From: Schistosoma haematobium
Lineage: Eukaryota > Platyhelminthes > Trematoda > Strigeidida > Schistosomatidae
Assembly: GCF_000699445.3 (NCBI RefSeq)
Contig: NC_067200.1
Span: forward strand, 19,209,003 to 19,273,002
DNA: 64,000 nucleotides
Direction of reading: 5' to 3'
Shown: positions 30,055-61,790 of the stretch, one piece after another
How positions within the stretch are numbered: position 1 is the stretch's first letter
How the letters are laid out: the number at the start of each line of letters is the position of its first letter
Notes under the pieces: generated by a model
The model's database searches: none
What the model was told of the DNA's origin: nothing
Seen by the model: only the letters and a program-made list of their open reading frames with translations
Made by a program: the position numbers and the translations under genes

Positions 30055-33000
30055 TCATCTCTGTACTGGATTACTATTTGTAACGTTCCTAATTGCTGTT
30101 AACCAATGTTCAACTGTATTCCTAAAATATGAAAATAAGATGATTGACAATGGATAAGTAAATAAAATGAAATTGTAAACTAATCCAAGCAATACTCAGT
30201 TAACACTGGTTAGTTTGCCTTGATTGTATAAACATTTACGACTATACTATTTGATGGTACGTTCTATCATAGCACCATTTAGCTGATGTCTATTCAAGAA
30301 TCGATTGAAGTGTTTTACACGGTTTATTTAGATGAATTTACACAATTGAAATCATAATTCGATTTGAGCCAATTCATCACTATAAACCTGGTTAGGTTAG
30401 TGGGCAATTTCATCTTAGAACAGTAATCCTAAAAAAATGTGCGTCAACGATTCCGTATGAGAGAATGGAACCTGGGACCTTCGAGTTTGAATGTGAATAC
30501 TTAACCTGTAGACCATTGAGTTGCCACTCAACGGTATGAATATCACACATCAACAGTGAAAACCTGGAAGCATTAAACGGTCGTGTCAATATTAGTATGG
30601 GACTCAGAAGTGCGCAATTGTGTCTTCACATTTGGGACTCGAACAAAGGACCTCCGGTAGTGTGCACGAATATTTTACCTCTAAGCCACTGATGTAGAAT
30701 CCAAAGATGTTACTATTTAACTTCAATCAATCTGAGATCTTGCAATGCCTGAGACCGATAACTGTCTCACACACGACACGGACCACAGTGCACTATGCAT
30801 ATATCTATGTATATACCTAATGAAAAAGTAACTCCTAGAATGGGTAATATTAGATTAAGTATAATGTATAATGATCTTACCATATTCCATTTAGTGTACT
30901 TCATAAATATAAATGATTTAAAATAAAACCTAAATGAATTTCCCATATTCAATGGATTTATATGTTGACAAATCAGTTGAAACAATAAGAACTTATGAAC
31001 GAATCAATCAGATTTGAGATAACAACTCTTGGATTTTGGCGCGAAATTCATTCATCCATTTGGTTTAATAGCATCTTGGCATTAGAGTTGATATCAGTTC
31101 ATGATGATAAACCGTAAATCTAATTTCTTAACCTTAACCATCAATTGTAAATCATCATTTAAATTCCTTATAAAGGTTGATCACCCTTATTTGATCCTAA
31201 TCACAATTGATTGATCACTGGGTGGTGATCAATGTCATGTGTGTCAAGTCCTTATTTAGTGCAGATCGAATGCTATCGACCATGTTGCAATGTGGCCACC
31301 AGTCTAGGTAACTCGACACTCTGGAAACCCTATTTCTTGTCGACTACCTCCAACCACCATCTAACCTGACTTCATCCTAGTTATTAAGTGAACACTCTCA
31401 AAGTCAGTTTAGCGTCACTCGAATGTCGTCCGTAAATTATAGTCTCACCACAATGCCTAAACGATATCAGTATATATTCCTATGGTATATTATAAAATGA
31501 TTTACATATTAACAATGTTAACAAGCATTAACCTTTGTGAATAGTGATCTGACAACTATAAGTCAACTTACCAAATGAATCCAATCAGCGATCTGTCGTG
31601 TGAATGAACAAGACGGAATCACTCAGTCATAATAATAATAATTATCGAATGATAAAATGAAATTTCGTTTCTGTAATGAGAATTGAATAATCAATCTAAA
31701 ATGTTGACAATTGATTGATCACTAAGTGGTGATCACTGTCATGTATGTATGGTCCTTCTTAGTGCAGGTCGAATCCCATCGATTAAGTTGCGATGCAACC
31801 ACTAGTTTAGGTGACTAGACATTGTTTGCACTATGTTGAGATAAGATGGTGGTTGGAGACAGTCAACCGGAAACCATGGAACCAGGTTTCGTACTATTTG
31901 GCACTCGTCAGCAAGGTTTACCTGTAATCTTGAGAGGACTAATGCTGACTGAGTGATTCAATCTCATGTCACTCAGCCTCACAATCAGAGCTATTACCAA
32001 TGCGCTATCCGGGCAGCAACTGACCTCTTGTAAGACTGAGATGTATTCACAATTGATTGATCACTGACTGTTGATCAACATCATGTATGTCAGGTCCTTC
32101 TTAATGCAGATCAAATCCTTTCGACCAAGCTGCCAACCTAGTTTTTTTAAACAAAAAGAACGTGAAATTGCATGAAACAATTATTTGATTTTTATAGTTG
32201 AATTCATGAGTTAATTGAAGCTAAACCACCATTGAAACCCTGGAAACACTGGACAACCATTTCGTTCTAGTATGGGACTCTTCAGCAGTGCATCTACACA
32301 GTCCTACACACGGGATTCCAACCCAGGACCTTCAGTCTCACTCACCAACGTCTAACCTATAAACTCCTAACCAGAAGTCCAACGGTGTGTATGTCTCACT
32401 TCAATCAATCCACTATATTGAACAATCATCTTTTGCCTTACAACCGACATGGTAGATCTCCACTAGTCACGGCTTGATAAAAAATATAGATCGATTGTCA
32501 TGAGATTTCATACATATAAGTAAAATGTTAATTGACATATGATCAAGTAATTAGCTTGACAAGTGACTTACTCCAATATTGACCAGAATTTTCTACCATA
32601 AACAGAACAGTTTAACATTAATATTAATACTCCCATTAACTATAACAGTATAGGAACAAAGTAATTTATATCCATTCCAAACTATACACAATGAATACAG
32701 TTAGCTGCATAATTTTTATTTGTATCAAAAGAGATTTTGTGAATGTGATAGTAATTTCAATGGTTGACATCATGAGTCAATTGAAGCTAGACCACCATGG
32801 AAAACCTGGAATCACTGGACGACCATTTCATTCAATGGTGGATGTGTCGCTCAATTTCGTGGATTAGTTGAAGTTAGACATTAACACCGATGGATGGTGA
32901 TTGGCTCAGTGGTCCAGTGATTAAGCGCTCGCACATGGGACTGATAGGTCCCGGGTTCGAGTCTCGCGAGTCAACATCGTGAATGCGCACTGCTGTGGAG

Positions 33001-34559
33001 TCCCATACCAGGAAGAAACGGCCACCCAGTGCTTCCTGGTTTTGCATTTTAGTCTAACTTCAAGTGACCCATGATCTCAACTACTGAAATTTTGATTTCA
33101 TTAATATTCCAGTCTTCAAATCATTTACACTCTACATTTCTTCTAAACACAAATTCGGTTACTTACCCAGAGGATCCCCTCAAAGAAATGTAGATAGGTA
33201 ATCAATATAAGAAACTATACCATGATGATGTAATATATCTGTATCAATGTTATTCATATATTAGAAAGTTTACACAAAAATGATATTATGATTAAGTGTA
33301 TATTAAAACATTTTCTAGTCTTCAGTTGATATACATTTCCACCTTATATAATGGATGGAAAGTTGTGCAAGATTATGAGTCAAGTGGAGTTAGACATTAA
33401 CATTGTTGGATGCTGACTCAGTGGTCTATAGGTTAAGGGTTCGCGCGTGAGATCAAAAGCCATGGGTTTGAGTCGTGCGTGTAGGATAGTGAGTACGCGC
33501 TTTCGAAAAGATCCATACTAAGACAAAACAGCTATACTATGCTTCCATGTTTTTGATAGTGTTCCAGCTTAGATCAACGCATGAAGTCAACTTTAATATA
33601 TATAAATTGAGAACTCAATTATATCAAAGTATATAGAATGATGGTGCACAATAGGTAAATTATTCCGAAATCGATGAAGTCAAAGTGTCAAAGGGATACA
33701 ATATGAATTATTGACTAGAAAAACTCACTTGTGACTAGCTTCGTAAGGGAATTCTCGTGAGAAATTGCAATCAGTGTAGCTATTCTGTGTAAGACAGAGA
33801 CAGATCGCACAATTCCGTGAATTTGTTAACGTCTGATATGTCGGCCGGTTCAGTGGTCTAGAGGTTAAGTGTTCGTTTGCAAGACCAAATGCCCTACGTT
33901 CGAGTCCTGCAAGTGTGATCGTGGATGAACACTACTGAGGAGTCACAAAATAGGACGAGACAACCGTCTCGTGCTTCCAAGTTTACGATGGTGATCCAAC
34001 ATTAATCGATTCATAGTCTCAATCAAGAACATAATACTTTTCAGTATATTCAACTTTTAATCAAAGTGGAGTGTAGAATATCAACAAATTAACTTACTGC
34101 TCTTCTGTCATTAAGGAAGATTGTTGATTTCATATGTTAATGATATAGGGGTTCAGTAATTTTAGCAGTTGAAATGGATTAGTAAGTATCATAGCTTTTT
34201 GATGGTGTTTCGTTCTCTGAACTGGATGGTTTTTGTCGTGGAGTATCATCAGCAAAAAACTTCAGGTAGAAGTCAGGTAAAAGACTTCTACCTGAAGTTT
34301 GTGCTGATGATGTCATTCAGAAGAACGATGAAAGCTCCACGACTAAACCATCCAACTCAGAGAACAAAACGCCATCAAAATCATCCACCTAAGCTACAAA
34401 TTTTCTCCACCATCTCAAGTATCATAGCATAAATCAATCTGATTATAATAGCATGGATGTAAATATTCAACAGTAGAACATACTTTTACACTTAGATGAT
34501 GATGAACCAGAATTACATGATTGTATCAGAAGGAATAAAGTTATAATGAAAGGAATCAT
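30055..34559 (-). CDS. Micro-exon gene C, secreted mini-protein (73 aa, 7 exons)
   Basis: Exons on the minus strand: 34559-34484 (76 nt), 34104-34098 (7), 33178-33167 (12), 32592-32572 (21), 31592-31572 (21), 30898-30881 (18), 30121-30055 (67, stop TGA). Donors are GTATGT, then GTAAGT x4, GTAAGA; all acceptors are AG. Exon 1 encodes MIPFIITLFLLIQSC, a signal peptide, then NSGSSSSKCK. The small exons add KEQ, GSSG, KFWSIL, ESLIGFI and CTLNGI. The last exon gives WNTVEHWLTAIRNVTNSN and ends PVQR. The total is 222 nt, in frame across all junctions. A and B have the same layout and similar residues (SCxSGSS, [FL]xS, GIWNT). Presumably secreted or membrane-associated. Several repeats sit in the introns. 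Function unknown; layout as in schistosome MEGs. Confidence 0.9.
30428..30790 (-). repeat. S1 elements, two tandem minus copies in gene C
   Basis: 30428-30545 holds the tRNA-like part of one copy (GGGACCTTCGAG, GACCATTGAGTTGCC). 30556-30790 holds a second with AAAACCTGGAAGCATTAAAC, a damaged hammerhead and its own tRNA part. They lie between exons 6 and 7 of gene C on one side and exon 6 on the other (30881). Confidence 0.75.
30981..31449 (+). mobile_element. MITE-T copy split by a nested insertion
   Basis: Left terminus AAGAACTTATGAACGAATC, right terminus CGTCCGTAAATTATAGTCTC. The body is interrupted at about 31195-31371 by an S3 fragment; the MITE continues with TTCATCCTAGTTATTAAGTG. Removing the insert restores the order seen at 39310. 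Confidence 0.8.
31195..31371 (-). repeat. S3 fragment nested in MITE-T
   Basis: Contains the hairpin TTGATCAC/GTGATCAA (31210-31231) and GGTCCTT/GCAGATCGAATGC-like blocks shared with 31711 and 32053. Flanked by ATCCTAA and ATCCTAG, a possible short target duplication. Confidence 0.6.
31711..32145 (-). repeat. S3 tRNA-like repeat, one unit plus start of the next
   Basis: Hairpins TTGATCAC...GTGATCA at about 31713 and a diverged one at 32053, 340 bp apart, mark a tandem unit. On the minus strand the middle reads like a tRNA promoter: CCGGATAGCGCATTGG (A box region, about 31995-32015) and GAGATTGAATC (B box, about 31950-31962). No hammerhead motif seen. Lies between exons 4 and 5 of gene C. Confidence 0.7.
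32197..32472 (-). repeat. S1 element, minus
   Basis: Minus-strand core CTGAAGA, stem II GTCC/GAAC with one mismatch, GAA, stem III with G-U pairs, stem I GCACTG/CAGTGT. tRNA boxes follow at 32320-32360, then the 5' block GTAGATCTCCACTAGTCACG. Almost full length. Confidence 0.8.
32742..33100. repeat. S1 foldback in gene C
   Basis: A minus 3' block (32742-32832: ATGAGTCAATTGAAGC to GACGACCATTTCATTC) precedes a full plus copy (32845-33100) with A box TGGTCCAGTGA, B box GTTCGAGTC, core CTGTGGA (A6 lost) and the 3' block. Both outer ends are the same sequence inverted. Confidence 0.85.
33368..33595 (+). repeat. S1 element
   Basis: GTTAGACATTAACATTGTTGG, A box TGGTCTATAGG, B box GTTTGAGTC, damaged hammerhead, CTTCCATGTTTTTGATAG. 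Confidence 0.75.
33838..34025 (+). repeat. S1 element
   Basis: A box TGGTCTAGAGG and B box GTTCGAGTC are perfect. Core CTGAGGA kept, but GAAA is GAGA. 3' block GTGCTTCCAAGTTTACGATGG. Between exons 2 and 3 of gene C. Confidence 0.8.
34165..34425. repeat. Penelope-like terminal-repeat foldback
   Basis: Two inverted arms (about 34193-34273 and 34284-34385) meet at GACTTCTACCTGAAG. Each carries GTTCTCTGA..TGGATGGTTT, TCGTGGAG and CATCATCAGC on its own strand. Lies in intron 1 of gene C. Same structure at 62020. Confidence 0.75.
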
Positions 34560-34611
34560 TACTTCAATTCAATACAAGTATAAACTTGTAAACTACTTAA
34601 ATACATTAAAT

Positions 34612-34623
34612 TAAATATATGTC
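34612..34623 (-). promoter_or_regulatory. TATA-like box of gene C
   Basis: Minus-strand GACATATATTTA, 53-64 bp before the ATG at 34559. Placed by analogy with genes A and P. Confidence 0.35.
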
Positions 34624-37589: not shown

Positions 37590-40500
37590 ATGATTATCAT
37601 AATAATTGGTTTACTTCTTGTATTTCAAACATTCCAGTCCGCACAGACTGAAAGTGGTGAGTCTAGTGAGTAACAACATTGTTTCTTTGAATCTTCTCAT
37701 TGATGTATAGGATTTCTATTGATCAGTCACTTATTGGTTTATGTGCATACATTGCGGAGTTGAATTTAAAACTCTATCTCATTGCATAATCAAGTGGATA
37801 TCAGGACTCCGTGCTGGAGTTTGAAGTGAATGATATAGAGTGAACATCAACACTGAGAAGCAGGCACATGAGGATGACGAAACGCGCATCTTGGATTCCA
37901 TTGCTAGCCACTATCCATCATTGTATCTATTTTCAAGTTTATTTCTATGAGTTATTTGTAATCTCATGATTTGGGTTCAAGTCCTGTGTACAAGATCATG
38001 AATATGCACTGTTGAAGCATCCTAATACTTGGACGAAACAGCCATTTAATTCTTTCAGGTTTTCAGTAGTATTCTAAGTGAGATCAAATCATGAATACAA
38101 TACTAATCAGTCAGTTACCACTTCTTCTAAAAGCAGAAAATAATCAAACGTAAGTCCGTTCATTGATATTCTCATTATTTCTCAAAATGACTAAGATAAT
38201 ATGACTTTCACGAATACGCAGAAACAAGATACTTTATAAAGAGTCAGATTCCTTTGGATATTAACTATCACTGTTAATACATGTACGTACATATTTATAT
38301 CTTTGAAGTATCTCTAAACATTATGTATACAAAGATTAGTTTGACTTTGTTATAACTTGTTGGTTTGTACGCCTATCAATGTTTAATGTAATGATACCGC
38401 TAATTAGAGAACAGTGATTTATCGACCAAACCAATGACGCATAAAACGAGGACGAGCAGTCTAGAGTCCTGATCGGTCCTTCTTCCCTGTCTAGCCTAGC
38501 CAGTTGAGTCCAGAACACCAATCTCAGCCTCTGCGATATCAATCCTTTATTTTAAACATACTGGGTTTATATACCAACCAGACAGACCACATCGTACCAT
38601 AAAATGGGAAACAACATTTGTACAAGACGTAGTCAAATATGGCTGTGAACGTGGGAGGTAGTAATTAATAGAGACAGCCTAATCCATAGGTCAAAATAAA
38701 GCCCATAATAAGAGGAATATGAATAGTTTAGTTACTTAACAATGATACGATAAAAGTATACGTATAGTATTGATCTATGAATGAATCCCAAAAGTTATCA
38801 TTCTCTATTGTTATTGGGGTATAACAGACTTTATGATATGCGACATACTATCACTACACACAAGTTGAAAGGCAGTCTCAATCATGTTCTGATCGTTATG
38901 TAACAGTACATAGGCCACTCTGGAATCTAGGACGGGAAGGATTCATCTGTCGATTGGATCTAAAATATTTTATCACCATAGCAACTGTTTATGATCTTTG
39001 ATATATATATATATATATATTTGTAAAACATTTTTTTAATTTTCAGAACACAATCACCATGGCAGTAAGTTTATAGTTCTTAAGATTTATAACCAAAGTA
39101 ATGAAAAATAAGGGTAAATTATTCTTTTAATACAGTTGGTTTTACTCATAAAATGAAATATCAGTATGAGATTGTGGAGATGATTATGTTCCTTGATCGA
39201 TATCATAAATCGATTGATATTAGACCACCATTGGAAACTTGGAAACAATGGATGGTTCTTTCGTTCTATTGTTGTCTTATGTTGTTTTGAAAATATCATA
39301 ATTTCAATAGCGAGACTACAATTTATGAACGAACCGATCAGATTTAAGATATCAGGTCTTAAAATTTCGCGCGAAATTCATTTATACATCAGATTAAATA
39401 ACATTGTGGTATCTTATCTGATGTCAGTTTGCGATAAAGACCGTAAATCTAATTCCTAACCTTAACCATTAACTGTAATTCCTAATTTTAATTCCTCATA
39501 CAGATTTATAACCTTCATTTCATCATAGTGACTAGGTGCACAATCTCAAGATCACTTTAGCGTTGCTCAAAGGTTGTCCATAAATAGTAATCTCACCATT
39601 TTCACTGTGTGTTTTTTTCGTTATAATGTAGACCTCTTCAGTAAGTAACTTGTCAAGTTAACCAATAGTTCATTTATTTACTTACTCTCAGTTTATGTTG
39701 TCATGCTGATCAAAATATTTTTGATGTTTTAGTTGAATAGTCAGAAACCAATTTGAGATCAATTTCATATTGGTTAGTCAAGTGAATACAAATCTTCACA
39801 GTTGAAATAATGAGTCGATCTAAGCTAGACTACCAATGAAAACCTGGAAGCGATGAACGGCCTTCTCGTCCTAGTATGGAAATTTTCATCATTGAGACAA
39901 TTATCCACTTCAGACAATGGATGAACAATTGTGCAAGATCATAGATCATTCGAAGTTAGATATATTAACACCGCTTAATGTCAGCTCGGTGGTTGACTGT
40001 TTAAGAGTTTGCACACAATCCTGAAGGTCCTGAGTTCGAGTTCTACGTGTCGGGTCATGGATTTACACTATTGAGGCGTCCCATAATAAGACAAGACATT
40101 CAGTAATCCCAGTATTTCAATGGTAGTCTAACTTAGATCAACTCATGAATTCAATTGTTAAAATGACTACAATCTGTATACAAATTCCAATAAATAACCA
40201 AACACATTTGTTTATCACATTTTGGCAAAAAAGACGAATGATTTCCCAACACATTAACTTGGTAACAAAACAGAATAATAAAGGTAATATGATCGCCTTA
40301 TTGATTCCTTATTCATTAGTAACTGGTTAAATCTTCTATGGTGAGTTGAATAATCAATGTTGTTTATTTCTTTAACTGATACGAATTTAGAAAGTTCAGA
40401 TAGTAAAATTGATTGTGTACAAATATGTATTATATTGGGCTATATGCTACTGACATCGATAGATATAAGTAGTATGTGTATCATCAATCGAAAGTGAAAT

Positions 40501-42192
40501 AACTGGAGAAAGAAGGTTAAGAAAATCGAATGAGAAAGAATGAGAATAGAGATTGATTTGTACGGAAATGAAGGAACAATGAAGTGTGAAACGATTGATT
40601 GACATTTTACAAATGATTCTCAGATTTCACTAGGAGGTTCTGTAATTTTGTATTCAAATACGTTCGATTGTCTCCACTTGTGTTCACGTTCAGTACAATA
40701 TGACTTGTGTTTGTACATACGGAACATTACTATGTACTGCATGATATTGTTTGTCATAATGTTCACTTACTATTTCATTTCTTTGTCCCGTCGACAGCAT
40801 TATTTTTGTGTACAACGACGAATATAGAAATGCAGTGTTTGTTATGACTTTTCCCCATGTCAACATCTCTAATCAGAATACTGACTTGTATGACATAGTT
40901 CTTGTGATAAAAAAACCGATGACACATCAAATATCACTATCAGCCTTACGTTAACAGTGGATCCTCACTGGTCGTTCTTGCCTAGCTCTGTCTATCGAGT
41001 TCAGAAAGCAATCTCAGCTTCCACTGTATGAATCATATATTTCAGACATACTGAATTTATATACAAGCAGATCAGACCGCATCACACCAGTAGAGTTCAA
41101 TCAGTGTAAGGTAATAGACAGTTATCTACAGATGGAGGCTTGAGCAAGATCACGGATCGATTGAATTTAGACATAAACGCCGTTGGATGCCGGCTCAGAA
41201 GTCTAGATAATAAGCGTTCGCGTGCGAGATCGAAAGTGCTAAGTACAAATCCCGCAGGCTAGATAGTGGATGGGCACTTCTGGAAAGTCCCATACTAAGA
41301 TGAAACGATTATTAAATGGTGAATTGTATAACAGTAGTCAATAGGTTAAATGGATGCTAAGTAAACTAATTTTCACAGAATTATCTGAAACAATAAATGT
41401 CTCAATTTTATACTGACTAAATTTTGTGAAATCTAATTATGTGCTAAACAAATTTATTGTTTCATAGCACCCTTTTCTCATTATGGTACGTTTTCATGTT
41501 GAAATGTGTTATGAATTATTCCTTGAAGGTATACTTACTCATTCGTTAAGTTGATGAATCAATTGAAGCTAGACCACCAGGGAAAACCTGGAATCCCTAG
41601 ACTACCGTTTCGCACTAGTGTGAGACTCCTCATCAGTGACTGGCTTCACGAGGTATTTCCTGGAGTTCTAGTAAAAAGCACTGACCAGTGGAGTTCAACT
41701 GGGTCTGTTGTGAGACAGTAACTCAATAAAGACAATAGTGAATGGTGACTTGATTTCGTGGATTGGCTGAAGTTAGAAATTAACACCGTTAGATGCTGCC
41801 TCAGTGGTCTACAGGTTAAGCGTTCGCGCACGAGACAGATAGGTCCTTCGTTTAAGTCTCACATGATTGATTGTGCGTTTGCACAAATGAGGAGTCCCAT
41901 AACTGAACGAAACAGTCGTCCAGTGCTTACAGGTTTTCCATGGTGATATAGCTTCAATTAAATCATGAACTCAGCTATTAAATGACCATAATATCCACAA
42001 AATCCCTTTCTGAGTACGATTATTCATCATTAGCCTGTCTGTTACTTAAATTACTTTCATATTCATTTCAGACTTCTTGACCAAGGAGAATTGAGTTCTT
42101 TATTTCTTTTTACCCGATTTTTAGGGAAACTATCAAGGGAATATTATCATCATGGTGGTGAAATGTACCACTTCCATTATCATCAGTTATAA
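37590..42192 (+). CDS. Micro-exon gene P, secreted His/Tyr-rich mini-protein (about 53 aa)
   Basis: Plus-strand gene: 37590-37656 (67 nt), 39047-39064 (18), 39632-39640 (9), 42125-42192 (68, stop TAA). Donors are GTGAGT, GTAAGT, GTAAGT; acceptors follow good pyrimidine tracts (TTTTTTTAATTTTCAG, CCGATTTTTAG). Exon 1: MIIIIIGLLLVFQTFQS, a signal peptide, then AQTES. Micro-exons add EHNHHG and NLF. The last exon gives RKLSREYYHHGGE then MYHFHYHQL. All exons stay in phase 1. An optional 12-nt exon (40391-40402, donor GTAAAA, KSSD) would also keep the frame. An alternative acceptor at 42071 would end the protein after about seven residues. No paralog here supports it, so it is less sure than A-C. 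Function unknown. Confidence 0.65.
37672..37925 (+). repeat. Smα-like composite
   Basis: A short minus Smα end (CTTTGAATCTTCTCATTGATG) followed by a plus body and AGGATGACGAAACGCGC, TTGGATTCCATTGCTAGCC. The CTGANGA and 5' side of stem II are deleted. Lies in intron 1 of gene P. Confidence 0.75.
37958..38100 (+). repeat. S1 fragment
   Basis: GATTTGGGTTCAAGTCCTG (B box), ATATGCACTGTTGAAGC, GGACGAAACAGCC and TTCAGGTTTTCAGTAG in S1 order. Confidence 0.65.
38386..38826 (+). repeat. L440 repeat, full-length reference copy
   Basis: 441 bp from TGTAATGATACC to GGGGTATAACA, so it starts TG and ends CA like a long terminal repeat. It contains a TATA-like GGGTTTATATACC (38569-38581) in the middle. The 5 bp on either side are not identical (TTTAA, GACTT). 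Internal retroviral-like sequence is absent on both sides. Confidence 0.65.
39001..39020. repeat. (AT)n microsatellite
   Basis: Uninterrupted AT run just before micro-exon 2 of gene P. Confidence 0.9.
39190..39286 (-). repeat. S1 3' fragment
   Basis: GATATCATAAATCGATTG, TTAGACCACCATTGG, AACTTGGAAACAATGG and TTCTTTCGTTCTATTG. Only the 3' end and part of the hammerhead region remain, 20 bp from MITE-T. Confidence 0.65.
39310..39597 (+). mobile_element. MITE-T copy, reference
   Basis: 288 bp. Left terminus GCGAGACTACAATTTATGAA, right terminus (reverse complement) GGTGAGATTACTATTTATGG. No ORF of note. It ends 34 bp before the 9-nt exon of gene P. Confidence 0.8.
39798..40172. repeat. S1 foldback in gene P
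   Basis: Minus arm 39798-39890 (AAAACCTGGAAGCGATG, GGCCTTCTCGTCCTAG) and plus copy 39925-40172 with B box GTTCGAGTT, ACTATTGAGGCG and the 3' block. Hammerheads degenerate. Confidence 0.75.
40438..40700 (+). repeat. R270 repeat
   Basis: Full order from GCTACTGACATCGATAGATA through CATCAATCGAAAGTG, GAACAATGAAGTGTGAA and CATTTTACAAATGATTC to GTGTTCACGTTCAGTAC. Confidence 0.85.
40955..41110 (+). repeat. L440 fragment
   Basis: CACTGGTCGTTCTTGCCTAG, AATCTCAGCTTCCACTGTATG, CAGACATACTGAATTTATAT and CAGACCGCATCACACCAG. Confidence 0.65.
41150..41325 (+). repeat. S1 element, degenerate
   Basis: GACATAAACGCCGTTGGATGC, a damaged A box, AAATCCCGCAGG, GGGCACTTCTGG and ACTAAGATGAAACG; no 3' block. Confidence 0.7.
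41550..41998. repeat. S1 foldback, near full length
   Basis: Minus arm 41550-41640, then a plus copy with the complete 5' block (GGCTTCACGAGGTATTTCC, GACCAGTGGAGTTCAACTGG), A box TGGTCTACAGG, a weak B box (GTTTAAGTC), a degenerate hammerhead (ACAAATGAGGAGTCCC) and the 3' end TGACCATAATATCCAC. It shows the full S1 organisation, about 450 bp. Confidence 0.85.
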
Positions 42193-45539: not shown

Positions 45540-45655
45540 ACGTGTTTGACTTTTCGTTCGAGTTCTGGGGTGAACGGCTGACGAGTCCCGGAATAGGACG
45601 AAACGCGCGTACTGGATTCAAGTGCTAGCTACCATCCATCTCTGCTTACAGTTGT
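45540..45655 (+). repeat. Smα-like fragment with good catalytic core
   Basis: CTGACGA, stem II GTCC/GGAC, GAA, stem III ACGC/GCGT are all intact, followed by A17 and CTGGATTC. The 5' strand of stem I (GAACGG) no longer pairs well with CTGGAT, so activity is doubtful. Confidence 0.75.
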
Positions 45656-46917: not shown

Positions 46918-49900
46918 CTAGCCACTGGCTCCAGTAGTGGTATTATTAAAAAAGGTATACCAATCATTTATCGTATTCCTAAAAAGCAGAAATTATCGGT
47001 TCAGAAAAGGACGAAATCAAATGATTATGTCAATATATTCAAATGAATACTCAAACTTTATTGATTCATTTGATTTGATTATAATGATTTAGATTGAGAT
47101 CATGAACCGATTGATGTTAGACCACCATTGAAAACCTGGAAGCACTGGACGGCCGTTTCGCCCTATTGTGGGGCTCCTCAGCAGTGCGTATCCACGACCC
47201 CAGGGCTTTCGGTCTCTCGTGCGCACTGCTGAGGAGTCCCACAATAAGACGAAACTGACATTCAGTGCTTCCAGGTTTTCAACGGTGGTCTAACATCAAT
47301 CGGTTCATGATCTCAATCAAGAACTTAACAATATCCAGAACCACTTTACTGTAATGATTTAATTAGTTGCTATGCTTTAAAATCCCATGTTTTTGATTGA
47401 TACCTATTAGTATTGATATAAGAAGTGAATAGTAATATTCCACATTAATCCAAATTATCTGATGACTCCTTCCCATTAAAAACACTTTTGATGTCCATTC
47501 GAATTGTAATCAATCTATTGATGGTTCGATAAAGGATTTGATGATTGAAGTATTAAAATGGCTTCATTTTTGCACATTTAAATTTTTTGCTCTAGATGAC
47601 TATAAACAAGTTTTGATATTACTGTAACTGCTCAAGTTACTTACTTACTCACTTACGCCTGTAACCCCTCGTAGAGGTGCATAGGCCACCCACCAGTAGT
47701 CTCTATCCAACTCCGCGCTGGACAATCCTTTCAAGTTACCATTAATCTCTTTCATATCTGCTTCCCATTCTCGACGTAGTTTGTTCTTTGGCCTTCCTCT
47801 TTTCGGTTTCCTTTTACAACTACAATCTATCACTTGCTTCATGATGCAGTTTGTTGATTTATGTCTCTAGTTCTGCTAGAGTTTATTGACGGTCTCAAGA
47901 CCAGGTAAAGGAGAAATGGTGGACATGAGGTCGACAACCTCATTCCGTAGAAAACAATCTTACTAGAAAAACATCAACTACATTAAACAAATTAGCTGCT
48001 AGAGTGGTAGATGTATGTTTATGTTGAAATGGTAGGATTTGTAAAAAGAAAACAAATTTTATTTCCTTACCAGATTCCATTCAAAAAGCTTCAAAATATA
48101 AATCGTTTAAAAGAATAGGCGATTGAATTTCAAATTGATTTAAACCTTTGAGATTGGTTTATATGCAAATATAATCTTGAACTTTTGTTTGGAATATTAA
48201 ATAGACCATGTTTAAGTAATACTGTGGTGTATGCTACTGATATCGACAAATATTAGTAGTATGTATCATCATTTAAAAGTGAAATGCCTGGAGGCAGAAG
48301 GTTAAGAAGATCGAAGAAAAGAGAATGAAAACAGAGAGTGATTAGTGTGGAAATGAAGGAACAGTCAAGTTTCCGATAATTGACCAACATTTTACAAATG
48401 AATGATTTACTGTATAGTTCTCAGATTTTAATAAGTGATTCTGTAATTGTGTGACTTAGAGCAATATCGAAGTAAACTGCAAAAGATGTACAGTCGCAAA
48501 CAAGAGATTGGTGAATTGCAGACCCTAACAACAATGGGAAGATAGTAGCAAATAGTGCTGAGTAAATCTTAAAATCTATCCCGTTGTACAAGCAGGTGGC
48601 TATCAGAACTCAGTAGCTAAATGGATAACGTGATGGTGTTTGAAGTTAACGGTACAGGGTTGGAATTTCAGAGTGAATTTCAACTCTGGAACGCAGATAC
48701 ATCTAACTAACGAGTCCCATATAGGATGAATTGTGCATTGTGGATTCCAATGCTAGCTACTGTCCGTCTTTCCTAACCAAGTGAACTATGTTTTTAAGTT
48801 TTTTCACCATTCGATAGAGAATGCTGATGGGCAGTCTATGCTGCTTCACGAGGGGTAACAGGCGTAAATAGATAAACTACATTTTACTAAAGCATTCATT
48901 GAACTAATAGTTTACATTAAAAAGCATTGACATTGTAAATTCAACTTACCAAATGAAGCTAATAAAGGATCTAGTTTGAATAAATCAACAGGATGATAAT
49001 TGATTTTAACACAGCAAAATGTTGATTTAGAAGTCTACTGACTGTCATGTTGCACAAATGTATGAATGTTTTCACATAATGAAAAAGTTAATCTGGACAT
49101 TAGCTCATTCTAACAAAACTACTTGGCTATTCATAAGATTACTTACAAATGAGCATAGAAAGTTATTATCTTAGTTAAAACTTACTAAACCATATAAAAT
49201 GACAAAATAAAACTTCTTATCTTAAGTGGACATGAACAAATAATTCAAGTATTTTCATAGTTGAAAGCATGAGTCGATCTAAGTAAGATTACCATTGAAA
49301 ACTTGGAAGCACTGGACAGTCATGGGACTCCTCAGCAGTGTGCATCCATGATCCCGCACTTGGAACTCAACGCAAGGATCTTTGATTTCGAGCGCGAGCG
49401 CTTAACCACTAGATCATTGAGCCACGTGCGGGATCGTGCATGTGCACTACCGAGGGTTCCCATACTAGGACAAAAGGGCTGTTCAATTCTTCCAGCTTCA
49501 TACTTGTGGTCTAGCGTAAATCGACCAGTGATTTTAACTGTGATTACACTTCAATCTCCTTATATCCTCATATTGATAATTCTAATATTCAAAAATGTCA
49601 GGTATAGTTTTCTTATTACAGTATCCTTATCACCAAACAAATATTCATCGATACACTGTAAGTTATCCATTTAGCTTAAATTATAATGAGTTCGATAGAA
49701 CGGTTTGATGATATATAAACGGATGATTTCATGTTTTGTTTGCTGATATCATCCTGAGGGAAAGAAATCATCGAAGTGTATAAAACGTAATTTATAATAA
49801 AATCATAAAAGAATTAAAATTTATCATAAACATTCTAATTAAACTCAGAGAAGCTTGAATTCACTTTGGTATTGTTTTTCTTGTATCTTCCATTGTTGTT

Positions 49901-52467
49901 TAGGGCTGAATATATGCATCCTGTGCGAAATGCACTGATATTGTCTTAAGACACAAGCTTTTTAAGCAGTGATGAATAGTGGCTAGCAGTGGAATGCAGG
50001 AGTCGTCAGCCTAAATATACCTGACTTCCAGAGTTGATGTTCCCTTCGGAATTCGAACCCATTATCGTTTGACTCAAACGATACCGCGTTATCTATTTAG
50101 CTACTGAGTTTGTATTGATGTCAAAAAAATTGTAAACTATTGATTTCAACAGTTATATCAATAACAAACGTAAATATCAATATTACTTTTTAACGGTAAC
50201 TTACTCAAATATTGACCAAAGTTTCCTTGAATATAATGAATTCAGAAGTAAATAGAGATATTGATGATTGGTTCAAATGAACCTCGTCCCCAAATGCCCT
50301 TGGTACTACCGAGAGTGGGGAGAGCCAGCTCTCCCTCTCGACATAGTCTCACATGGCCACGTGTATATAGACTCTGCCACGGAAGTCCTAATCACTGCCT
50401 CCTCATGGCATCACTGTTGTTTACGAAATTGACAGGACGAAAAGCGAATGCCTGGCGCTTTAACCAGGTTGGTGGACATGGAGAGTCCATCTAAGGAGTT
50501 GGAAAACCCTCAATCCCAACCAATGGTGAACATGGGCTTGAGTATCCTGAGGGAACAAATGGCGTATGAACCAATCGTTGGCCACCGACTACCATGTGAC
50601 TGAATCTCCTGACGTTGCTCCACTGCCTTGTGGATCAGACCTTCAGGTCGAAGGCTCCGGGTGTGGCCCCCTAAGGAAACCACCTGCCTCAGTTTGGGCA
50701 CCCAGGCAGTATCACAGCCCTCACACATATCAGATGAGATTTGTGTGGCGTATATGTATTTGGTGCTTCATTGTACCAACATCTATGTGTTAAAATAAAT
50801 AAAACATATGAACCCCAAAAGATCTAAAAGGTATACACTATGAACTCAATATATCAGCATATTAGAATGAAGAATAAACTCATTTGAATATGATAAAGTT
50901 AACATTGCCAGTTTAAAATTTGATAAACTATGAGTTCATTAAAATGAATATTCTAAATCATATGATCAACAGTTTGTAATCTACATTTTCTCAAATTACA
51001 TTTTGTGGGTGTGTACTACTGATATCGATCAATATAAGCAGTATGTATCATCAATCCGAAGTGAAATGACTAGCATCAGAAGGTTGGGATGATCAAAGAA
51101 AAAAGAATGAGAACAGAGAATGGTTGCTATGGAAACGAAAGAACAATGAAGTCTGAGACGACTGATTAGCATTTTGTAGATGAATTATTTACTGTATGGT
51201 TCTTAGATTTGACTAAATGACTCTGTAATTTTTTATTTACATACATTCGATTGTCCTCGATTGTTTTGTCATTCACCACATTCATAACATTAGAAAATAT
51301 ATTCACTTACTCAATGAAAGACCTTTTGAAAAGTAGATTGATAATCAAAATATAATCGTTAATTGTATAGGTATATAGTTTTCATTCATCCTAAATTCAA
51401 GTGCTGCATTGAAAAAGCTAGCCCTTGCTTAATAAGATATAGTGAGTTGTTAGAAAAGGTTTGAAGAATCCGTATAGTAAAGCTGTCATATGATGCTTGA
51501 CTGACTAAACTAAAGCTATTTCCATTGTCATATAGATGAACTAAAGGTAAATTGATCATAGTTTTTCAATTATTTAGGGTTAAATTTGCTTCTGATATGC
51601 CCTCAATTTCGGCCAGCTCATTGGTCTAGAGATTAAACGTTTGATCATGAAACCGAAGGTCCTGGGTTCGAATTCCTTTGGCGTGGGATCGTGAATGTGC
51701 AGTATTGAAGAGTCTCACTGTAGGACCAAACGGCCGTCCAGTACTTCTAGGTTTTCTATGATGGTAAAAGTTTAATCGACTCATGAATTCAACTATCAAG
51801 TAGATAGATCTGTTATTCATACACTGGATCATCCGAATATAAAGTTTGAATTTATAATTATCTCAATGAAGAATAATATGATAATATTTTAGAATAAAAG
51901 TAACATTTTATGCTTTACAAAATGTCTCATTTGATATAAAAACAGAATGTTGAATGTTTAGCTTACTTCTTCTCTGTGACCAGCAACATAGTTGATTTTG
52001 CATGTCAACCAAAGGATAATAAAAATTTTAGTAATATAGTAGTAGTTTTAATAATTGAGACCATGAGTCAATTGAAGCTAAACCCCCCATCCCCGTTGGA
52101 AAACTTGGAAGCATTGGACGGTCGTTTCGTTCTAGTATGGAGCTCTTCAGCATTACGCATCCTGTGATCACACATGTGTATTTCTAAGGAGTCTCACAAT
52201 AGGACAAAACGACCATCCAGTATTACCAAGATTTTCATAGTGATCTAGCTTCAAATGATTTATGATCTCAATTATTAAGATAGTAAATTAGTCAATGAAT
52301 TCTAATGTAATTGACAATACTTATAATATAAATTAATCAGATGATATAAATAACATTCCAATACTTTATATAACATACATACTATTACATTTTGGGTTTG
52401 AGGAACCAGATGAACCAGAATAACATGATTGTATTAGAAAGACTGCAATTATGACAAATGTAATCAT
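46918..52467 (-). CDS. Micro-exon gene B, secreted mini-protein (74 aa, 7 exons)
   Basis: Exons on the minus strand: 52467-52383 (85 nt), 51973-51967 (7), 51322-51311 (12), 50225-50205 (21), 48970-48950 (21), 48088-48071 (18), 46978-46918 (61, stop TAG). Donors are GTATGT, GTAAGC, GTAAGT x3, GTAAGG. Exon 1: MITFVIIAVFLIQSC, then YSGSSGSSNPKCN. Micro-exons: KKK, SFI, EKLWSIF, ESFISFI, CFLNGI. Terminal exon: WNTINDWYTFFNNTTTGASG. The sum is 225 nt, one frame. The stretch from KLW to TFF alternates bulky hydrophobic and polar residues and could form an amphipathic or membrane helix; NNT and NTT are N-glycosylation sequons. Introns hold S1, Smα, R270, R500 and RTE-1 copies. Paralog of A and C. 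Confidence 0.9.
47093..47335. repeat. S1 foldback palindrome in gene B
   Basis: Minus arm 47093-47200 and plus arm 47222-47335 are near-perfect inverted copies of the S1 3' half: AAAACCTGGAAGCACTGG on one side, CAGTGCTTCCAGGTTTTC on the other. The tRNA part is deleted and the hammerhead regions face each other. Confidence 0.9.
47142..47187 (-). ncRNA. Hammerhead ribozyme motif in S1, best copy
   Basis: Minus strand: stem I GCACTG/CAGTGC (six pairs), core CTGAGGA, stem II GCCC/GGGC (consensus GTCC/GGAC changed on both sides) closing CACAATA, GAA, stem III ACGG/CCGT, cleavage residue C17, cut expected between plus positions 47148 and 47147. All conserved hammerhead positions are present. Confidence 0.7.
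47636..47865 (-). pseudogene. RTE-1-related 3' end
   Basis: Plus reading begins ACTTACTTACTCACTTACGCC (the reversed TAAG tail and end), and the minus frame includes KRKPKRGRPKNKLRREWEAD and MKEINGNLKGL, the family C-terminus. The tail beyond differs from RTE-1 (LSSAELDRDYWW), pointing to a sister subfamily. Confidence 0.85.
48222..48446 (+). repeat. R270 repeat, 3' cut by Smα
   Basis: Starts TGGTGTATGCTACTGATATCG and breaks off after GATTCTGTAATTGTG, where a Smα-like copy begins. Confidence 0.8.
48446..48780 (+). repeat. Smα-like, tail of one unit and full second unit
   Basis: GACTTAGAGCAATATCGAAG is the Smα tail; the next unit starts AGGTGGCTATCAGAACTC with GATGGTGTTTGAAG and GGGTTGGAATTTC (damaged B box). 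The hammerhead is decayed (CTAACGA, GAATTG). Confidence 0.8.
48812..48875 (+). pseudogene. RTE-1 3' terminus fragment
   Basis: GAGAATGCTGATGGGCAGTC and TGCTTCACGAGGGGTAACAG, GCGTAAATAGATAAAC: the last 60 bp of the element. Confidence 0.75.
49262..49545. repeat. S1 foldback with internal tRNA part
   Basis: Minus arm 49262-49422 with a hammerhead lacking part of stem III and a tRNA-like part (reversed AACCACTAGATCATTGAGCC), then a plus arm from GGGATCGTGCATGTGCAC. Both hammerheads damaged (CCGAGGG, CAAAAG). Confidence 0.8.
49869..50118 (-). repeat. Smα-like, minus
   Basis: Order reversed: TTGTCTTAAGACACAAGC, GTGGCTAGCAGTGGAATG, AGGAGTCGTCAGCC (core in reverse, stem II deleted), GAATTCGAACCCATTATCG (B box), GCGTTATCTATTTAGCTACTG. 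Confidence 0.8.
50274..50805 (+). repeat. R500 repeat, longest copy
   Basis: Strand given for the short frame inside (from about 50285): VLPRVGRASSPSRHSLTW, CHGSPNHCLLMAS, KLTGRKANAWRFNQVGGHGE. The order of blocks is inverted relative to 58670. It ends in CAGGCAGTATCACAGCC and an AAATAAATAAAAC stretch. Within gene B, between exons 3 and 4. Confidence 0.8.
51005..51282 (+). repeat. R270 repeat
   Basis: Full copy from GTACTACTGATATCGATC to TTGTCATTCACCAC. Confidence 0.85.
51604..51805 (+). repeat. S1 element
   Basis: A box TGGTCTAGAGA, B box region GGGTTCGAATTCC, hammerhead with C3 changed (TTGAAGA), stem III ACGG/CCGT intact, 3' block GTACTTCTAGGTTTTC. Confidence 0.8.
52048..52282. repeat. 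S1 foldback in intron 1 side of gene B
   Basis: Minus arm 52048-52160 (core CTGAAGA, GAA, ACGA/CCGT on the minus strand; stem I mismatched) and plus arm 52170-52282 (CTAAGGA, CAAAAC). Confidence 0.8.
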
Positions 52468-57227: not shown

Positions 57228-60200
57228 TCATCCTGAACTGTTATTTGTCAGTTGTACAGCTTGATAATAGAACCCAATTATCGTATTCCTAGAAATGAAA
57301 AACGATCAATATCATTCAGGAATAAAACGTTTAACATCATTTAGAAATACATTATGAACAGTCAAATGGTTCGGATCTCGCGAGGCGGGACCATGGATGT
57401 GTACTGCTGAAGAGTCCCACAAAAAGACGAAACGGCCATCCAGTTCATCCAGGTTTTCCATGGCCCTCTATCTCTAATGAATAATCTCAACTAATACAAT
57501 TAGTATAGTATCCATAAAGGCCCTTTCTGATATTCTCATATATGATGAAGATATTATGTAACGTAGATAGACGAACGCATCTTACCATATTCCATCTAGA
57601 AAACTGTGATTAACGTTTATAAAAATAAACAAAAACACTGAATACTGTTTGAACTGCAACAAGCATAAATGAATCAGTTATACATGAGTGATGATTATCT
57701 AAGATTACTGAAATATATTGAACATTCAAGTGAATATTATTTAACAGCTAACGAACTGATTACGAAATCCACAGCACAATTACTCCTGGATTGAAAAACG
57801 ACAAAAAATTCACAAAAGTAATGTATGGGACATACGGGGTCACTCCCTACGGGGCAAACTCCAACCGATTGCAAAAACAACTATTCTAGCTCCGGTAGTT
57901 TTGCCGTGCTTCCATATGATATGTTTCTCTTCAAAAGGGCCTACTAGACTTCACCAACTTGTTTTGCTGAAAGTAGCAATGATTGTTCAAGATTACTGAA
58001 AGATATGAAACATTCAAGTCAATATGAATTAACAGCTAACAATCATGATGTATGTTTCAAGAATTTGATGAAGATAATCTCAATTACTATAAAATCATAC
58101 TGTTAAAGTGGTTCCACTTGGAACATATGACATTTATCTGGTACTCTATTTGTCATTGGATGGCGGATACAGTATATCTACTGTAAATTTTGTCATTTTA
58201 AACTGAAAGTAAAATATTAATGACTACCTACCATAATAAGCTAATAAATGTTCTGAAATAGAAGAAAATAAGTTTCAATAATGTTACATTGATTGATGTT
58301 GCAGTTTACATAAGGATGTGTACTAATTATCGTAATGAACCAGTATACACCGGTTCCATCCAGCTTTCTTTCACAATATGGTACCGTATCATAAATTGTC
58401 CTAGTGTCAGCAACTCAACAACTCAGTCAGTTCCCCAAGTTTTCACATTCAAATTTCAGGCTAGTGCTTTAGTATCTTTCAAACACACTTTTTTGGGATC
58501 ATTTGATTGACGACAGAACTCAAATTTGATTAAGTCTGGGACGCAATCGACCTGAGTGTGGATTATCAAAAAACAGCGGTTTTTACAAGTCTCTTCTCAC
58601 CTTTATCCAGCCTTGTAATCTAACAGCACATCATGTAAACGAGTGAGGATCCTTATCCGGGGCTCTGTACTACTTTATTTATCTAAACACATAAACTTCA
58701 CTACAAGGAGGCACCAAATATATATGCACCACCCTTTGTCATTAAATTTGTGTGAATGTCATCATACTGTTCAAGTGCCCAAACCGGAGCCGGTGGTTTG
58801 CTTAGGGGGGCACACCCAGAGCCTTTGACCTAGGGATCTTATCCACAAGGCAGTAAGCAACGTTAGAAGATACAGTCACGTGGTGACCAGTGGCCAACAG
58901 TAGCTTCATACACCATTTGTTTGCTTAGGATACTGGAACTTTGAACTCAATTTTACTTATGCCTGTTAAGCTCATGGAGGTGCAGTGACTGCCCAACAGC
59001 ACTTTCCATCCGACTCTATCGTGAGCCATCCTTTCCATTTGCTATCTATGCTTTTCACATTTGCTTCTGATTCTCGACGGAGTGTTCTTTGGCCTCCCTC
59101 TTTTCTGTTTTCCTTCAGGATTCCAAGTTAGTACTGGAATCATGATGCAGTTTGATAATTCCCTCAATATGTATGTTAACCACTTACAACTCCGAGCTCG
59201 GAGAAAGAAGGAGTGTTGTGCATAAGATCGGCAATCACATCCTGTAGAATACAACCTTGTTAAAAATAGACATTAATCTAATGAAACAAATTTGAACTAA
59301 ATATTTACTGAGTTATACAGAATGAAAAAAACTGTATTTACTCGGTTAGTAAATAACAACTTAGTTCAATATTCTCATCAGTATGGAGACTGTTAAGTTT
59401 CTCTTGATTGATATCATAAACCCATCGATGTCAGACACTCGCTGAAAACCTGGAAGGACTGGACGTATGTCTAAAAAGTTAGATGTTGTCTATTCATCTC
59501 TTAATTAATTATTTGATGGATATCAATTCTATCTTAAAATGTAATTGAATTGAATGAACATGCTACTTTTTTGCGTTGACTTAACCAAGATGGATTCAAC
59601 TGAATATATGAGTTTTGATAACTTACATCACAATCTGAATTAAGTGTATCAGAAGGTGTTTTGTGGAGATTGTAGTAATTTCAATAGTTGTGATCATGAG
59701 TCAATTGAAGCTAGACCATCATGAAAAACCTGGAAGCACTGGACGGCGAGGTCGTAGGTGTGCACTGCTGAGGTGTCCCATAATGAGATGAAACGGCCAA
59801 CCAATGCTCCCAGGTTTCCCATAGTGGTCTAGCTTCAATTGACTCATCATCTCGACTATTGAATTAAATGTGAGAACTATTGAAAGTGTAGATGAACTCG
59901 ATGACTGTTTTGTTCTAGTATGTGACTTCTCAAACAGTTTGGATTTATGACCACGGTTAGTTCGACCGCAAGCAAATGATGAGACGTAGGTTGATTGGAA
60001 GTAAACATTAACATTGTAGAATAGTGACTACAAATGGTCCATCGGTTAACTGCTGAATTCGGTACCTTGTAGTATCATCGTAGAATAATGTAGAAAAAAA
60101 CTTGTCAGAAAATATTTCAAATGGTATAAATCGATATCTTTACATGGACACTTGAATTAACGAACACAACTGACGTTTACTATGAACTTACCCCACTGTT

Positions 60201-61790
60201 GAAACAAACCGCCTGAAATATATATTGAAATTAACAATTCACAGATATCAATTCAAAAAACACGGACGTTATCTGTTCCTTGTCAATGTGATTGGAGCTC
60301 TTTGAAATACTTTACCTCAGTTCAATCATTTTAATAAGCATATTAAAATGTATAATCAATAGTATACCATACTTTAAATAGCGTCAGAAGTATTAAATAG
60401 TTATCAATATAGGGTTGTGGAGATTTTTAAGTTTTAATTGTGATCATGAAGCGATCAATGTTTAGACTACCATTGAAAATCTAAAAGCGTTGGATGGTTG
60501 TTTCGTCCTAATATGAGACTCCTCAGAAGTGAACATCGACTATCCATCATACAAGACTCGAACCCAAGATCTCCGGCTTCAGCGTGCAGACGCTTGGCCT
60601 ATAGATCACTGAGGTGTCCGATGTTAACTTCAATCTATTCACCATATTATGTGATCATCCTACATTAAATAATTGGAATAATTTTTCTATAAAATATGAA
60701 TTTGAAAAAGCATTTACTCACCAAAAAGGTGATCGTCTAGTGTAATGATAAAACAATCGTGCCTATTTATTAGCAAATCAAACTGTTAAGAGATAATATC
60801 CATTAATCGCTATCATTGAATATGAAACAATATGTTAGTTGTAATACTTTGTTAATTACTTACTTATTTACTTACGCCGGTTACCCCTTGTTAAGGAGCA
60901 CAGGCTACCTGCTAGCATTCTCCATCCAAAAACATCCCGAGTCAACCTTTCCAGTTAGTTCCATTTGCTATTCATCCTTTTCATATTTGCTTCCAATTTG
61001 AAACTCTGTGTGTTCTTTAACCTTCCACTTCACTGTTTCCCTTGGGAATTCCAAGCTAGCGCTTGGTTTCGTGATTTCTGTAATGTATGTCCTATCCACT
61101 TCCATTGTCATTTCGTCATTTCCTCCTCAGTAAGAACTTGGTTTGTTCTCTATCACAGTAGGTTGTCGGTTAACGAATATTGAGTATCTTGTGTAAGCAA
61201 CTATTTATAAATAATTGTACCTTCTTGTTAATAGTTGTGGTAGTTCTCCACCACTCAGCTCCGTACAGTAGGACTGCCTCAACCTTCGTATTAAAGATTC
61301 TAAATTTGATGTTGTTTGACAACTGTTTTGATTTCCATATATTCTTTAACTGTAAGAATGCTGCATCACATCCTTTTTGCTCATCGATGATGCTTCTTAG
61401 GAAATACTTGATTAAGTGAGATCGATAGACTAAATTGATAGGTTGTGAAGTTAATTGCTACAAGTAAGTTAATATTAAGTTAGTTATTATTCTATACATG
61501 TAAGCCCTTAATTGATTAGTAAATAGAATATCAAATGATAGACTTACGGTTCCTCTGTCATTGATATAATAAGTGTAAACATCATCAGTATATTCTTGTT
61601 ACAGATTACATATATATATATCTCTTATTATAATGAAATACTAAACTTCCAATTGTACATGTATTCACTATATTCAGAAGAGAATCTTTATATCTTCAAA
61701 CATACCAGTGCAGTTAGCTGGTTTTGATGATGATCCTGACTGACATGAACGTATTAAAATCAGTGGAATTATAATGTAGATAATCAACAT
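57228..61790 (-). CDS. Micro-exon gene A, secreted mini-protein (75 aa, 7 exons)
   Basis: Exons on the minus strand: 61790-61706 (85 nt), 61554-61548 (7), 60736-60722 (15), 60212-60192 (21), 58252-58232 (21), 57603-57586 (18), 57288-57228 (61, stop TGA). Donors are GTATGT, GTAAGT, GTGAGT, GTAAGT, GTAGGT, GTAAGA; acceptors are all AG. Exon 1: [16 protein letters not shown] (signal peptide), then [12 protein letters not shown]. Micro-exons: EE, PRSPF, WRFVSTV, GTFISLL, CFLDGI. Terminal: [20 protein letters not shown]. The sum is 228 nt in one frame. Conserved with B and C: SCxSGSS, a second Cys, S at the centre of the fourth exon, C-x-L-[ND]-GIWNT, and a C-terminal N-glycosylation sequon. The start is the only ATG before the hydrophobic stretch. 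Function unknown. S1, R500 and RTE-1 copies lie in the introns. Confidence 0.9.
57366..57525 (+). repeat. S1 element, 5' truncated
   Basis: Starts in the B box (GTTCGGATCTCGCG). Core CTGAAGA, GTCC/AGAC with one mismatch, GAA, ACGG/CCAT, stem I partly mismatched; 3' block and the outer terminus (ATAGTATCCATAAAGGCCC) are complete. Confidence 0.8.
58670..58935 (-). repeat. R500 repeat, partial
   Basis: TTTATTTATCTAAACACATA, AAGGAGGCACCAAATATA, CAAACCGGAGCCGGTGGTTT, CACACCCAGAGCCTTTGACC, ACACCATTTGTTTGCTTAGG. The short-ORF part is missing; an RTE-1 end follows directly. Confidence 0.75.
58940..59275 (-). pseudogene. RTE-1 3' end
   Basis: Minus frame around 59090-59150 reads [20 protein letters not shown], followed by the family C-terminus in other frames, and the reversed end CTTATGCCTGTTAAGC. 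Between exons 4 and 5 of gene A. Confidence 0.85.
59420..59470 (-). repeat. S1 3' fragment
   Basis: CCATCGATGTCAGACACTCG, GAAAACCTGGAAGGACTGG. Confidence 0.6.
59660..59870. repeat. S1 foldback
   Basis: Outer terminus GTGGAGATTGTAGTAATTTC, minus arm to CTGGAAGCACTGGACGG (59745), then a plus arm GTGTGCACTGCTGAGGTG to GACTCATCATCTCGAC. The plus core is CTGAGGT, so inactive. Confidence 0.8.
60430..60660 (-). repeat. S1 element, minus
   Basis: CATGAAGCGATCAATG, TTGTTTCGTCCTAATATG, CTCCTCAGAAGTGAAC (core CTGAGGA, GAA present, stem III lost), reversed B box GACTCGAACCCAAG, reversed A box region. Confidence 0.8.
60855..61430 (-). pseudogene. RTE-1 3' fragment
   Basis: Plus reading starts TTACTTACGCCGGTTACCCC and covers the reverse of the C-terminal region up to GCTCATCGATGATGCTTC (reverse of SIIDEQ). 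Between exons 2 and 3 of gene A. Confidence 0.85.

Follow-up and report, generated by a model that had tools for sequence, protein, structure and literature searches.

A tandem array of at least eight candidate micro-exon genes with a common exon grammar in Schistosoma haematobium

The DNA analysed here, referred to as the window, is a stretch of 64,000 nucleotides (nt) from the forward strand of Schistosoma haematobium contig NC_067200.1 (C6; contig position = window position + 19209002). A first-pass annotation of this stretch had proposed three minus-strand series of seven short exons, arranged like those of schistosome micro-exon genes (MEGs). We searched the minus strand for short segments flanked by AG and a GTAAGT-like donor and extended these to a first and a last exon. 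All three series were reproduced with the lengths given earlier, with AG/GT sites, compatible phases and in-frame stops (Table 1). The genes are labelled A, B and C from left to right in the window; the predicted protein sizes of 75, 74 and 73 amino acids (aa) were confirmed, and the earlier A-B-C order was probably the reverse of ours. GT-AG borders are found in all 18 introns; intron 1 of every gene lies in phase 1 and the remaining introns in phase 2. Exon 1 is followed by the same donor (GTATGT) in all three genes. Ungapped identity between exons of equal length ranges from 32/85 (exon 1, B-C), 5/12 (exon 3, A-B) and 26/61 (exon 7, B-C) at the low end to 17/21 (exon 4, A-B) and 16/21 (exon 5, A-B and B-C) at the high end.

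The chains were challenged with a guided dynamic-programming search, in which the micro-exon peptides of one copy served as guide and another copy as target (six comparisons). A chain had to show AG, a donor with three or more of its four letters matched, the exact exon lengths in the right order and an open frame. All six comparisons gave a full chain, and in four of them this was the model chain itself. When C was the target and A or B the guide, a 15-nt decoy (60872-60886) was chosen as exon 3, its peptide score being 49 against 44 for the modelled exon in one comparison and tied with it at 53 in the other. The full chain was absent from 200 dinucleotide shuffles per comparison and from 57 other real tiles of the window, which bears out the earlier claim that a seven-exon match in three places is hard to obtain by chance.

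The search was extended by 100 kb on each side of the window, so that 264 kb were scanned in all. A scan for ATG, a hydrophobic stretch and a GTATGT or GTAAGT donor gave ten places on the minus strand and four on the plus strand; seven of the minus-strand places line up between 34559 and 104437, each of them with the GTATGT donor. Independently of residue similarity, a grammar was defined as a signal-peptide exon, an exon of 7, 10, 13, 16 or 19 nt, one of 9-18 nt, exons of 21, 21 and 18 nt, and a short phase-2 terminal exon, with exon 3 or exon 4 optional, stops at junctions forbidden and splice weights set by hand. This grammar returned eight chains, seven on the minus strand and one on the plus strand, and none in 30 shuffled 264-kb strands. 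The three paralogs of the first-pass annotation are confirmed as models and belong to a set of at least eight genes. Gene P lies on the plus strand inside the interval first noted, and genes D to G lie to the right of the window (window-relative 65660-104437, minus strand; C6:19274662-19313439). The 21-21-18 nt core is present in 7/8 genes. The array of at least eight genes, the additional plus-strand gene within the window and the common exon grammar are new here.

A stricter first grammar had given seven minus-strand and two plus-strand chains, several sharing exons, and none in 20 shuffles; it was superseded. The first chain for gene P was replaced following a junction check, because it carried stops at its exon junctions. 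Two weaker plus-strand candidates farther right have core scores of 14.4 each (best of 20 shuffles, 9.9) and longer Thr/Ser-rich or charged exon candidates upstream of the core; both were left out of the gene count because their first or last exons are unsettled. An isolated signal-peptide-like exon, followed by GTAAGT as donor, lies to the left of gene A, and no micro-exon chain was found behind it.

Table 1. Positions of the gene models, weaker candidates and repeats. Numbering is relative to the window; minus-strand gene spans are written from first to last exon.
Feature	Position	Strand	Length (nt)	Remarks
Gene A	34559-30055	-	76-7-12-21-21-18-67	73 aa, in-frame stop
A exon 1	34484..34559	-	76	signal-peptide exon, donor GTATGT
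A exon 2	34098..34104	-	7	phase 1 to 2
A exon 3	33167..33178	-	12	
A exon 4	32572..32592	-	21	
A exon 5	31572..31592	-	21	
A exon 6	30881..30898	-	18	
A exon 7	30055..30121	-	67 (coding)	stop TGA, ATTAAA 50 nt downstream
Gene B	52467-46918	-	85-7-12-21-21-18-61	74 aa, in-frame stop
B exon 1	52383..52467	-	85	signal-peptide exon, donor GTATGT
B exon 2	51967..51973	-	7	phase 1 to 2
B exon 3	51311..51322	-	12	
B exon 4	50205..50225	-	21	
B exon 5	48950..48970	-	21	
B exon 6	48071..48088	-	18	
B exon 7	46918..46978	-	61 (coding)	stop TAG, AATAAA 42 nt downstream
Gene C	61790-57228	-	85-7-15-21-21-18-61	75 aa, in-frame stop
C exon 1	61706..61790	-	85	signal-peptide exon, donor GTATGT
C exon 2	61548..61554	-	7	phase 1 to 2
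C exon 3	60722..60736	-	15	least certain exon
C exon 4	60192..60212	-	21	
C exon 5	58232..58252	-	21	donor GTAGGT
C exon 6	57586..57603	-	18	
C exon 7	57228..57288	-	61 (coding)	stop TGA, AATAAA 82 nt downstream
Gene P	37590-42161	+	67-16-18-21-18-37	58 aa; grammar search; between A and B
P exon 1	37590..37656	+	67	signal-peptide exon
P exon 2	38134..38149	+	16	phase 1 to 2
P exon 3	39047..39064	+	18	
P 21-nt exon	40320..40340	+	21	exon 5 type; exon 4 not found
P exon 6	41468..41485	+	18	
P exon 7	42125..42161	+	37	in-frame stop
Gene D	71827-65660	-	64-10-9-21-21-18-37	59 aa; right of window
Gene E	82928-76824	-	73-13-15-21-21-18-31	63 aa; right of window
Gene F	91511-86575	-	76-19-21-21-18-31	61 aa; no exon 3; right of window
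Gene G	104437-98614	-	73-16-18-21-21-18-37	67 aa; right of window
Weaker candidate	110386-121653	+		core at 119875, 120236, 121636; signal-peptide exon 110386
Weaker candidate	152474-153386	+		core at 152474, 152688, 153369
Lone signal-peptide-like exon	21302-21377	-		donor GTAAGT
Hammerhead match	31873-31917	-		RF00163
Hammerhead match	32246-32291	-		RF00163
Hammerhead match	45574-45617	+		RF00163
Hammerhead match	46429-46474	-		RF00163
Hammerhead match	47142-47187	-		RF00163
Hammerhead match	55164-55209	-		RF00163
Hammerhead match	56150-56194	-		RF00163
Inverted repeat	17147-18167 / 22854-23874		1021	98% alike, 4.7 kb apart
(TAG)n array	19600-19823			about 75 copies

The splicing logic is the same in all eight genes. 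In 8/8 genes the sole asymmetric micro-exon is exon 2, which switches the phase from 1 to 2; it measures 7 nt in A, B and C, 10 in D, 13 in E, 16 in G and P and 19 in F, the grammar having permitted only lengths one above a multiple of three. A free listing of minus-strand candidates recovers the same exon 2 for A, C, D, E, F and G, with that of B falling below threshold. Skipping exon 2 shifts the frame and leads to an early stop in 8/8 genes, and skipping any set of exons 3-6 leaves a clean frame in 110 of 112 combinations (full forms counted). Given this phase switch, exon 2 should be constitutive; exons 3-6 (9-18, 21, 21 and 18 nt) are all in phase 2 and multiples of three, so that any of them could be skipped or lost in frame. 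Symmetric exons make up 30 of the 38 micro-exons (79%). Codons split by the exon 5/6 and exon 6/7 junctions encode Cys and Trp, respectively, in 7/8 genes, gene E being the exception at both.

To compare the genes without assuming an open reading frame (ORF), each pair was aligned with blastn (E 1e-3; up to six exon matches and four others listed per pair). In-register exon homology was detected in 12/28 gene pairs. Among the matches listed, A and B align in register at exons 1, 4, 5, 6 and 7 and A and C at exons 1, 2 and 6, while two exon-overlapping matches are out of register. An in-register match between P and F (463 nt at 58%) may be a repeat, and many of the other matches are dispersed repeats in introns. 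Local alignment scores of the parts beyond exon 2 gave z values of 0.4 to 16.3 against 200 shuffles.

The A-B comparison shows saturation at synonymous sites and conservation at nonsynonymous ones. The proportions of synonymous (pS) and nonsynonymous (pN) sites that differ are 0.74 and 0.15 over exons 4-6 (Fisher p 1.5e-4) and 0.77 and 0.30 over exons 4-7 (p 1.1e-4; rounded counts in both), and the differences fall 5/1/10 on codon positions 1/2/3 of exons 4-6, with 20 of each compared. For A and C, pS and pN over exons 4-6 are 0.54 and 0.35. The synonymous excess between A and B, and in part that between B and C, supports the reading frame. Genome-wide, the exon 6 pattern of A-C was found exactly at A, B and C and with one mismatch at two places on other contigs. 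Genome searches with the exon 1 DNA of B and with its exon 5 pattern (up to three mismatches) matched only themselves; these searches missed even gene A and thus argue only against near-identical copies.

The eight predicted proteins comprise 58-75 aa before signal cleavage, with a hydrophobic N-terminal stretch within exon 1 in 8/8 and 30-46 residues beyond exon 2. The hydrophobic moment, calculated with our own implementation over the best 18-residue window, is 0.48-0.68 in 8/8 genes, and the net charge of that window is -1 to +1. Shuffling the order of residues gave p at or below 0.05 for the moment in 7/8 genes (C, 0.08). A poly(A)-like signal lies within 200 nt past the stop in 7/8 genes, all but P (background 0.32 per 200 nt). 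A Pfam search with the A, B and C proteins found nothing above cut-off, and a search of solved structures with the B protein gave weak unrelated matches only (best E 0.12).

Upstream sequences were scanned on either strand for TRTTTAY, which we take to be the forkhead consensus. Within 300 nt upstream of exon 1 of the eight genes there are 14 such sites, distributed over 7/8 genes (not C); shuffles of the same sequences contain 5.8 on average, and 0/500 reach 14. Across four window sizes and two patterns, the total is enriched at p <=0.012 in seven of the eight settings, the strict pattern at 1000 nt giving 0.128. Two further patterns served as controls; one showed depletion, and the other gave p 0.048 for the total at 1000 nt and p 0.032 for the gene count at 200 and 300 nt. 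In S. mansoni, 28 of 36 foxA-dependent genes are reported to have forkhead motifs upstream, at about 130 bp from the start, and 18 of those 36 genes are MEGs (PMC12998952).

Repeats occur in and around the array. Seven matches to the type I hammerhead ribozyme (Rfam RF00163) lie in a gene A intron (two), in a gene B intron (one) and about 0.4-2.1 kb downstream of B or C (the others), and presumably belong to dispersed repeats resembling short interspersed nuclear elements (SINEs). The window also holds a (TAG)n array and a 1021-nt inverted repeat containing ORFs, one of which (213 aa) matched no Pfam family.

We consider it probable that the interval first noted covers the left part of a tandem array, in which at least eight S. 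haematobium MEGs encode small secreted amphipathic peptides, perhaps products of the esophageal gland under forkhead control. Building on the computed gene models, paralogy, phase rules, amphipathicity and A-B frame, we propose a model in which each gene would be transcribed and give rise to one small secreted peptide, with exon 1 encoding the signal peptide. Exons 3-6 and the start of the terminal exon would form a short amphipathic helix, with the Cys and Trp at the last two junctions in 7/8 genes. A forkhead factor would drive expression in the esophageal gland, and the peptides may insert into the membranes of ingested host blood cells, an action proposed earlier for MEG-12, MEG-26 and MEG-8 (PMC4671649, PMC5825161, PMC12998952).

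Several observations weigh against this interpretation. The grammar was partly set and widened after members D-G and P had been seen, with hand-set splice weights, so that the eight genes are not all independent discoveries; exon 4 of gene D, which the grammar search skipped as optional, was placed by hand, and genes F and P are without exon 3 and exon 4, respectively. At E 1e-3, 16/28 gene pairs, B-C included, show no in-register exon match by blastn, and gene E is the weakest member, its local scores being poor against most others. Coding constraint is weaker between B and C (exons 4-6, p 0.022; exons 4-7, p 0.17), and A and C show no synonymous excess over exons 4-7 (p 0.82). The predicted signal peptides were judged by hydropathy only, and for gene P a poly(A)-like signal is absent even over 400 nt. 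Forkhead enrichment is weaker when counted by gene (p 0.002 to 0.25 over the settings tried), and the sample consists of only eight promoters. Finally, short symmetric exons do not make up about 80% of the coding region, as one description of MEGs has it: all micro-exons together account for 35-46%.

The strongest alternative concerns the identity of the family. It is quite possible, if short of probable, that the array is the S. haematobium version of MEG-26, which has one plus seven members in S. mansoni and seven in S. japonicum. Compared by description only, MEG-26 is the nearest named candidate: the number of members is of the same order at about eight, MEG-26 products are short secreted peptides with an amphipathic helix (PMC5825161), and all eight moments calculated here exceed the value of 0.4 in the MEG-26 descriptor. 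MEG-26 is also located on S. mansoni chromosome 6 (PMC10526429), to which contig C6 may correspond. Two descriptors nevertheless speak against this reading, as S. japonicum MEG-12 and MEG-26 helices carry a net charge beyond +3/-3 (PMC5825161) and the array helices one near zero, and the MEG-26 signal peptide reaches into the first micro-exon (PMC4671649), whereas here the hydrophobic stretch lies within exon 1 in 8/8 genes.

It is also conceivable, although we regard it as unlikely, that these are real MEG-type genes acting outside the esophagus, for instance in egg, cercarial gland or tegument secretions. MEG-1, MEG-2 and MEG-3 have been named as egg-secreted (PMC10526429), and tissue cannot be read from DNA; the combination of amphipathic helices with upstream forkhead-like sites is nonetheless what would fit esophageal-gland genes. 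A decaying, untranscribed array of pseudogenes might account for the exons missing in P and F and for the A-C pair showing no coding constraint in exons 4-7, but it is hard to reconcile with eight of eight open models having usable splice sites and with the strong synonymous excess between A and B, and we hold it to be improbable. Still more improbable is a single very long gene with repeated exon cassettes: seven units do follow one another on one strand, and exon patterns repeat within SmMEG-26.2 and 26.4 (PMC5825161), but every unit begins with a separate ATG signal-peptide exon and closes with a stop of its own, a poly(A)-like signal follows within 200 nt in 7/8, and one unit lies on the opposite strand. 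Chance joining of short AG-GT segments, of which the minus strand holds many at 7-21 nt, is extremely improbable, given that no complete chain appeared in the 200 shuffles for each of six comparisons, the 57 real tiles or the 30 shuffles of 264 kb.

The proposed MEG array matters for several reasons. Secreted at the host interface, MEG products are being followed as vaccine and mechanism leads (PMC7982949, PMC12998952), and MEGs of S. haematobium are little covered in the texts consulted: the text available of one genome paper (PMC8846543) does not mention MEGs or micro-exons, and that of another does so only via a cited reference. An array of at least eight genes invisible to ORF scanning illustrates the blind spot of such scans. 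The common grammar provides a practical finder, in which length and phase pick out members even after their residues have diverged, and it offers a testable point on how micro-exon genes hold frame as exons come and go. None of the papers listed by literature searches names such an array in S. haematobium in its title or opening abstract lines, a negative that does not reach supplements or genome annotations, and a literature text search with six residue strings from the exon 5-7 core found no paper. In the accessible text of PMC4350168, which predates the naming of MEG-26, the MEG families recorded for S. haematobium run up to MEG-25, and no tandem cluster in this species exceeds two genes.

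Among named families, MEG-8/9 shares with the array a phase-2 terminal exon (PMC5825161). Gene B in addition resembles two overlapping SmMEG-8.3 peptides (PMC7982949): it scores 51, and 3000 shuffles of either side reach no higher than 44. Genes A and G match marginally, and none of the other five genes is clearly similar. When 22 published MEG peptides were compared with the eight proteins, the best eight of the 22 included four at p <=0.04 (8.3b, 8.2b, 8.3a and 9b), all matching B best, and one at p 0.05 against gene F. This likeness is a lead only, because 22 peptides were tried against eight genes and a hydrophobic-helix bias is shared. Furthermore, the conserved motif of MEG-8/9 lies in the terminal exon (PMC5825161), whereas the resemblance of B is spread over exons 1-6 and precedes that exon, and meg-8.2 has 17 exons (PMC12998952).

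The genes were also compared with the MEG class as a whole. Newly named MEGs have two long flanking exons, central micro-exons below 36 bp and a 5' exon that holds most or all of the signal peptide (PMC4671649), and all eight genes have this arrangement (exon 1 of 64-85 nt, four to five inner exons of 7-21 nt and a last-exon coding part of 31-67 nt). The share of symmetric micro-exons also equals the 26/33 (79%) of MEGs 26-32 (PMC4671649). The first-pass view that the layout is of the schistosome micro-exon type is thus supported by flanking exons, micro-exons, signal exon and symmetry share, and it stands for this looser published layout; it does not extend to the broader descriptor, by which about 80% of the coding region lies in short symmetric exons (PMC5825161). 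On their exon structure, we accordingly class the genes as candidate MEGs in the looser sense only, in the wording of the paper that named MEGs 26-32. More tentatively, and with considerable doubt, we suggest that they may represent an undescribed MEG family, in which an obligatory phase-switch micro-exon varying in steps of three, a near-invariant 21-21-18 core and intron-split conserved Cys and Trp codons would permit sequence change, exon loss and in-frame splice forms without loss of the helix; the family would be forkhead-driven in the esophageal gland and include at least two further plus-strand relatives with longer Thr/Ser-rich or charged inserts. The array shares with the MEG class a long 5' signal-peptide exon, central and mostly symmetric micro-exons, tandem clustering, repeat-bearing introns and small secreted products, the latter predicted here. 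It differs in the smaller share of its coding sequence carried by micro-exons and in that each of the eight genes has just one asymmetric exon, always in the same position.

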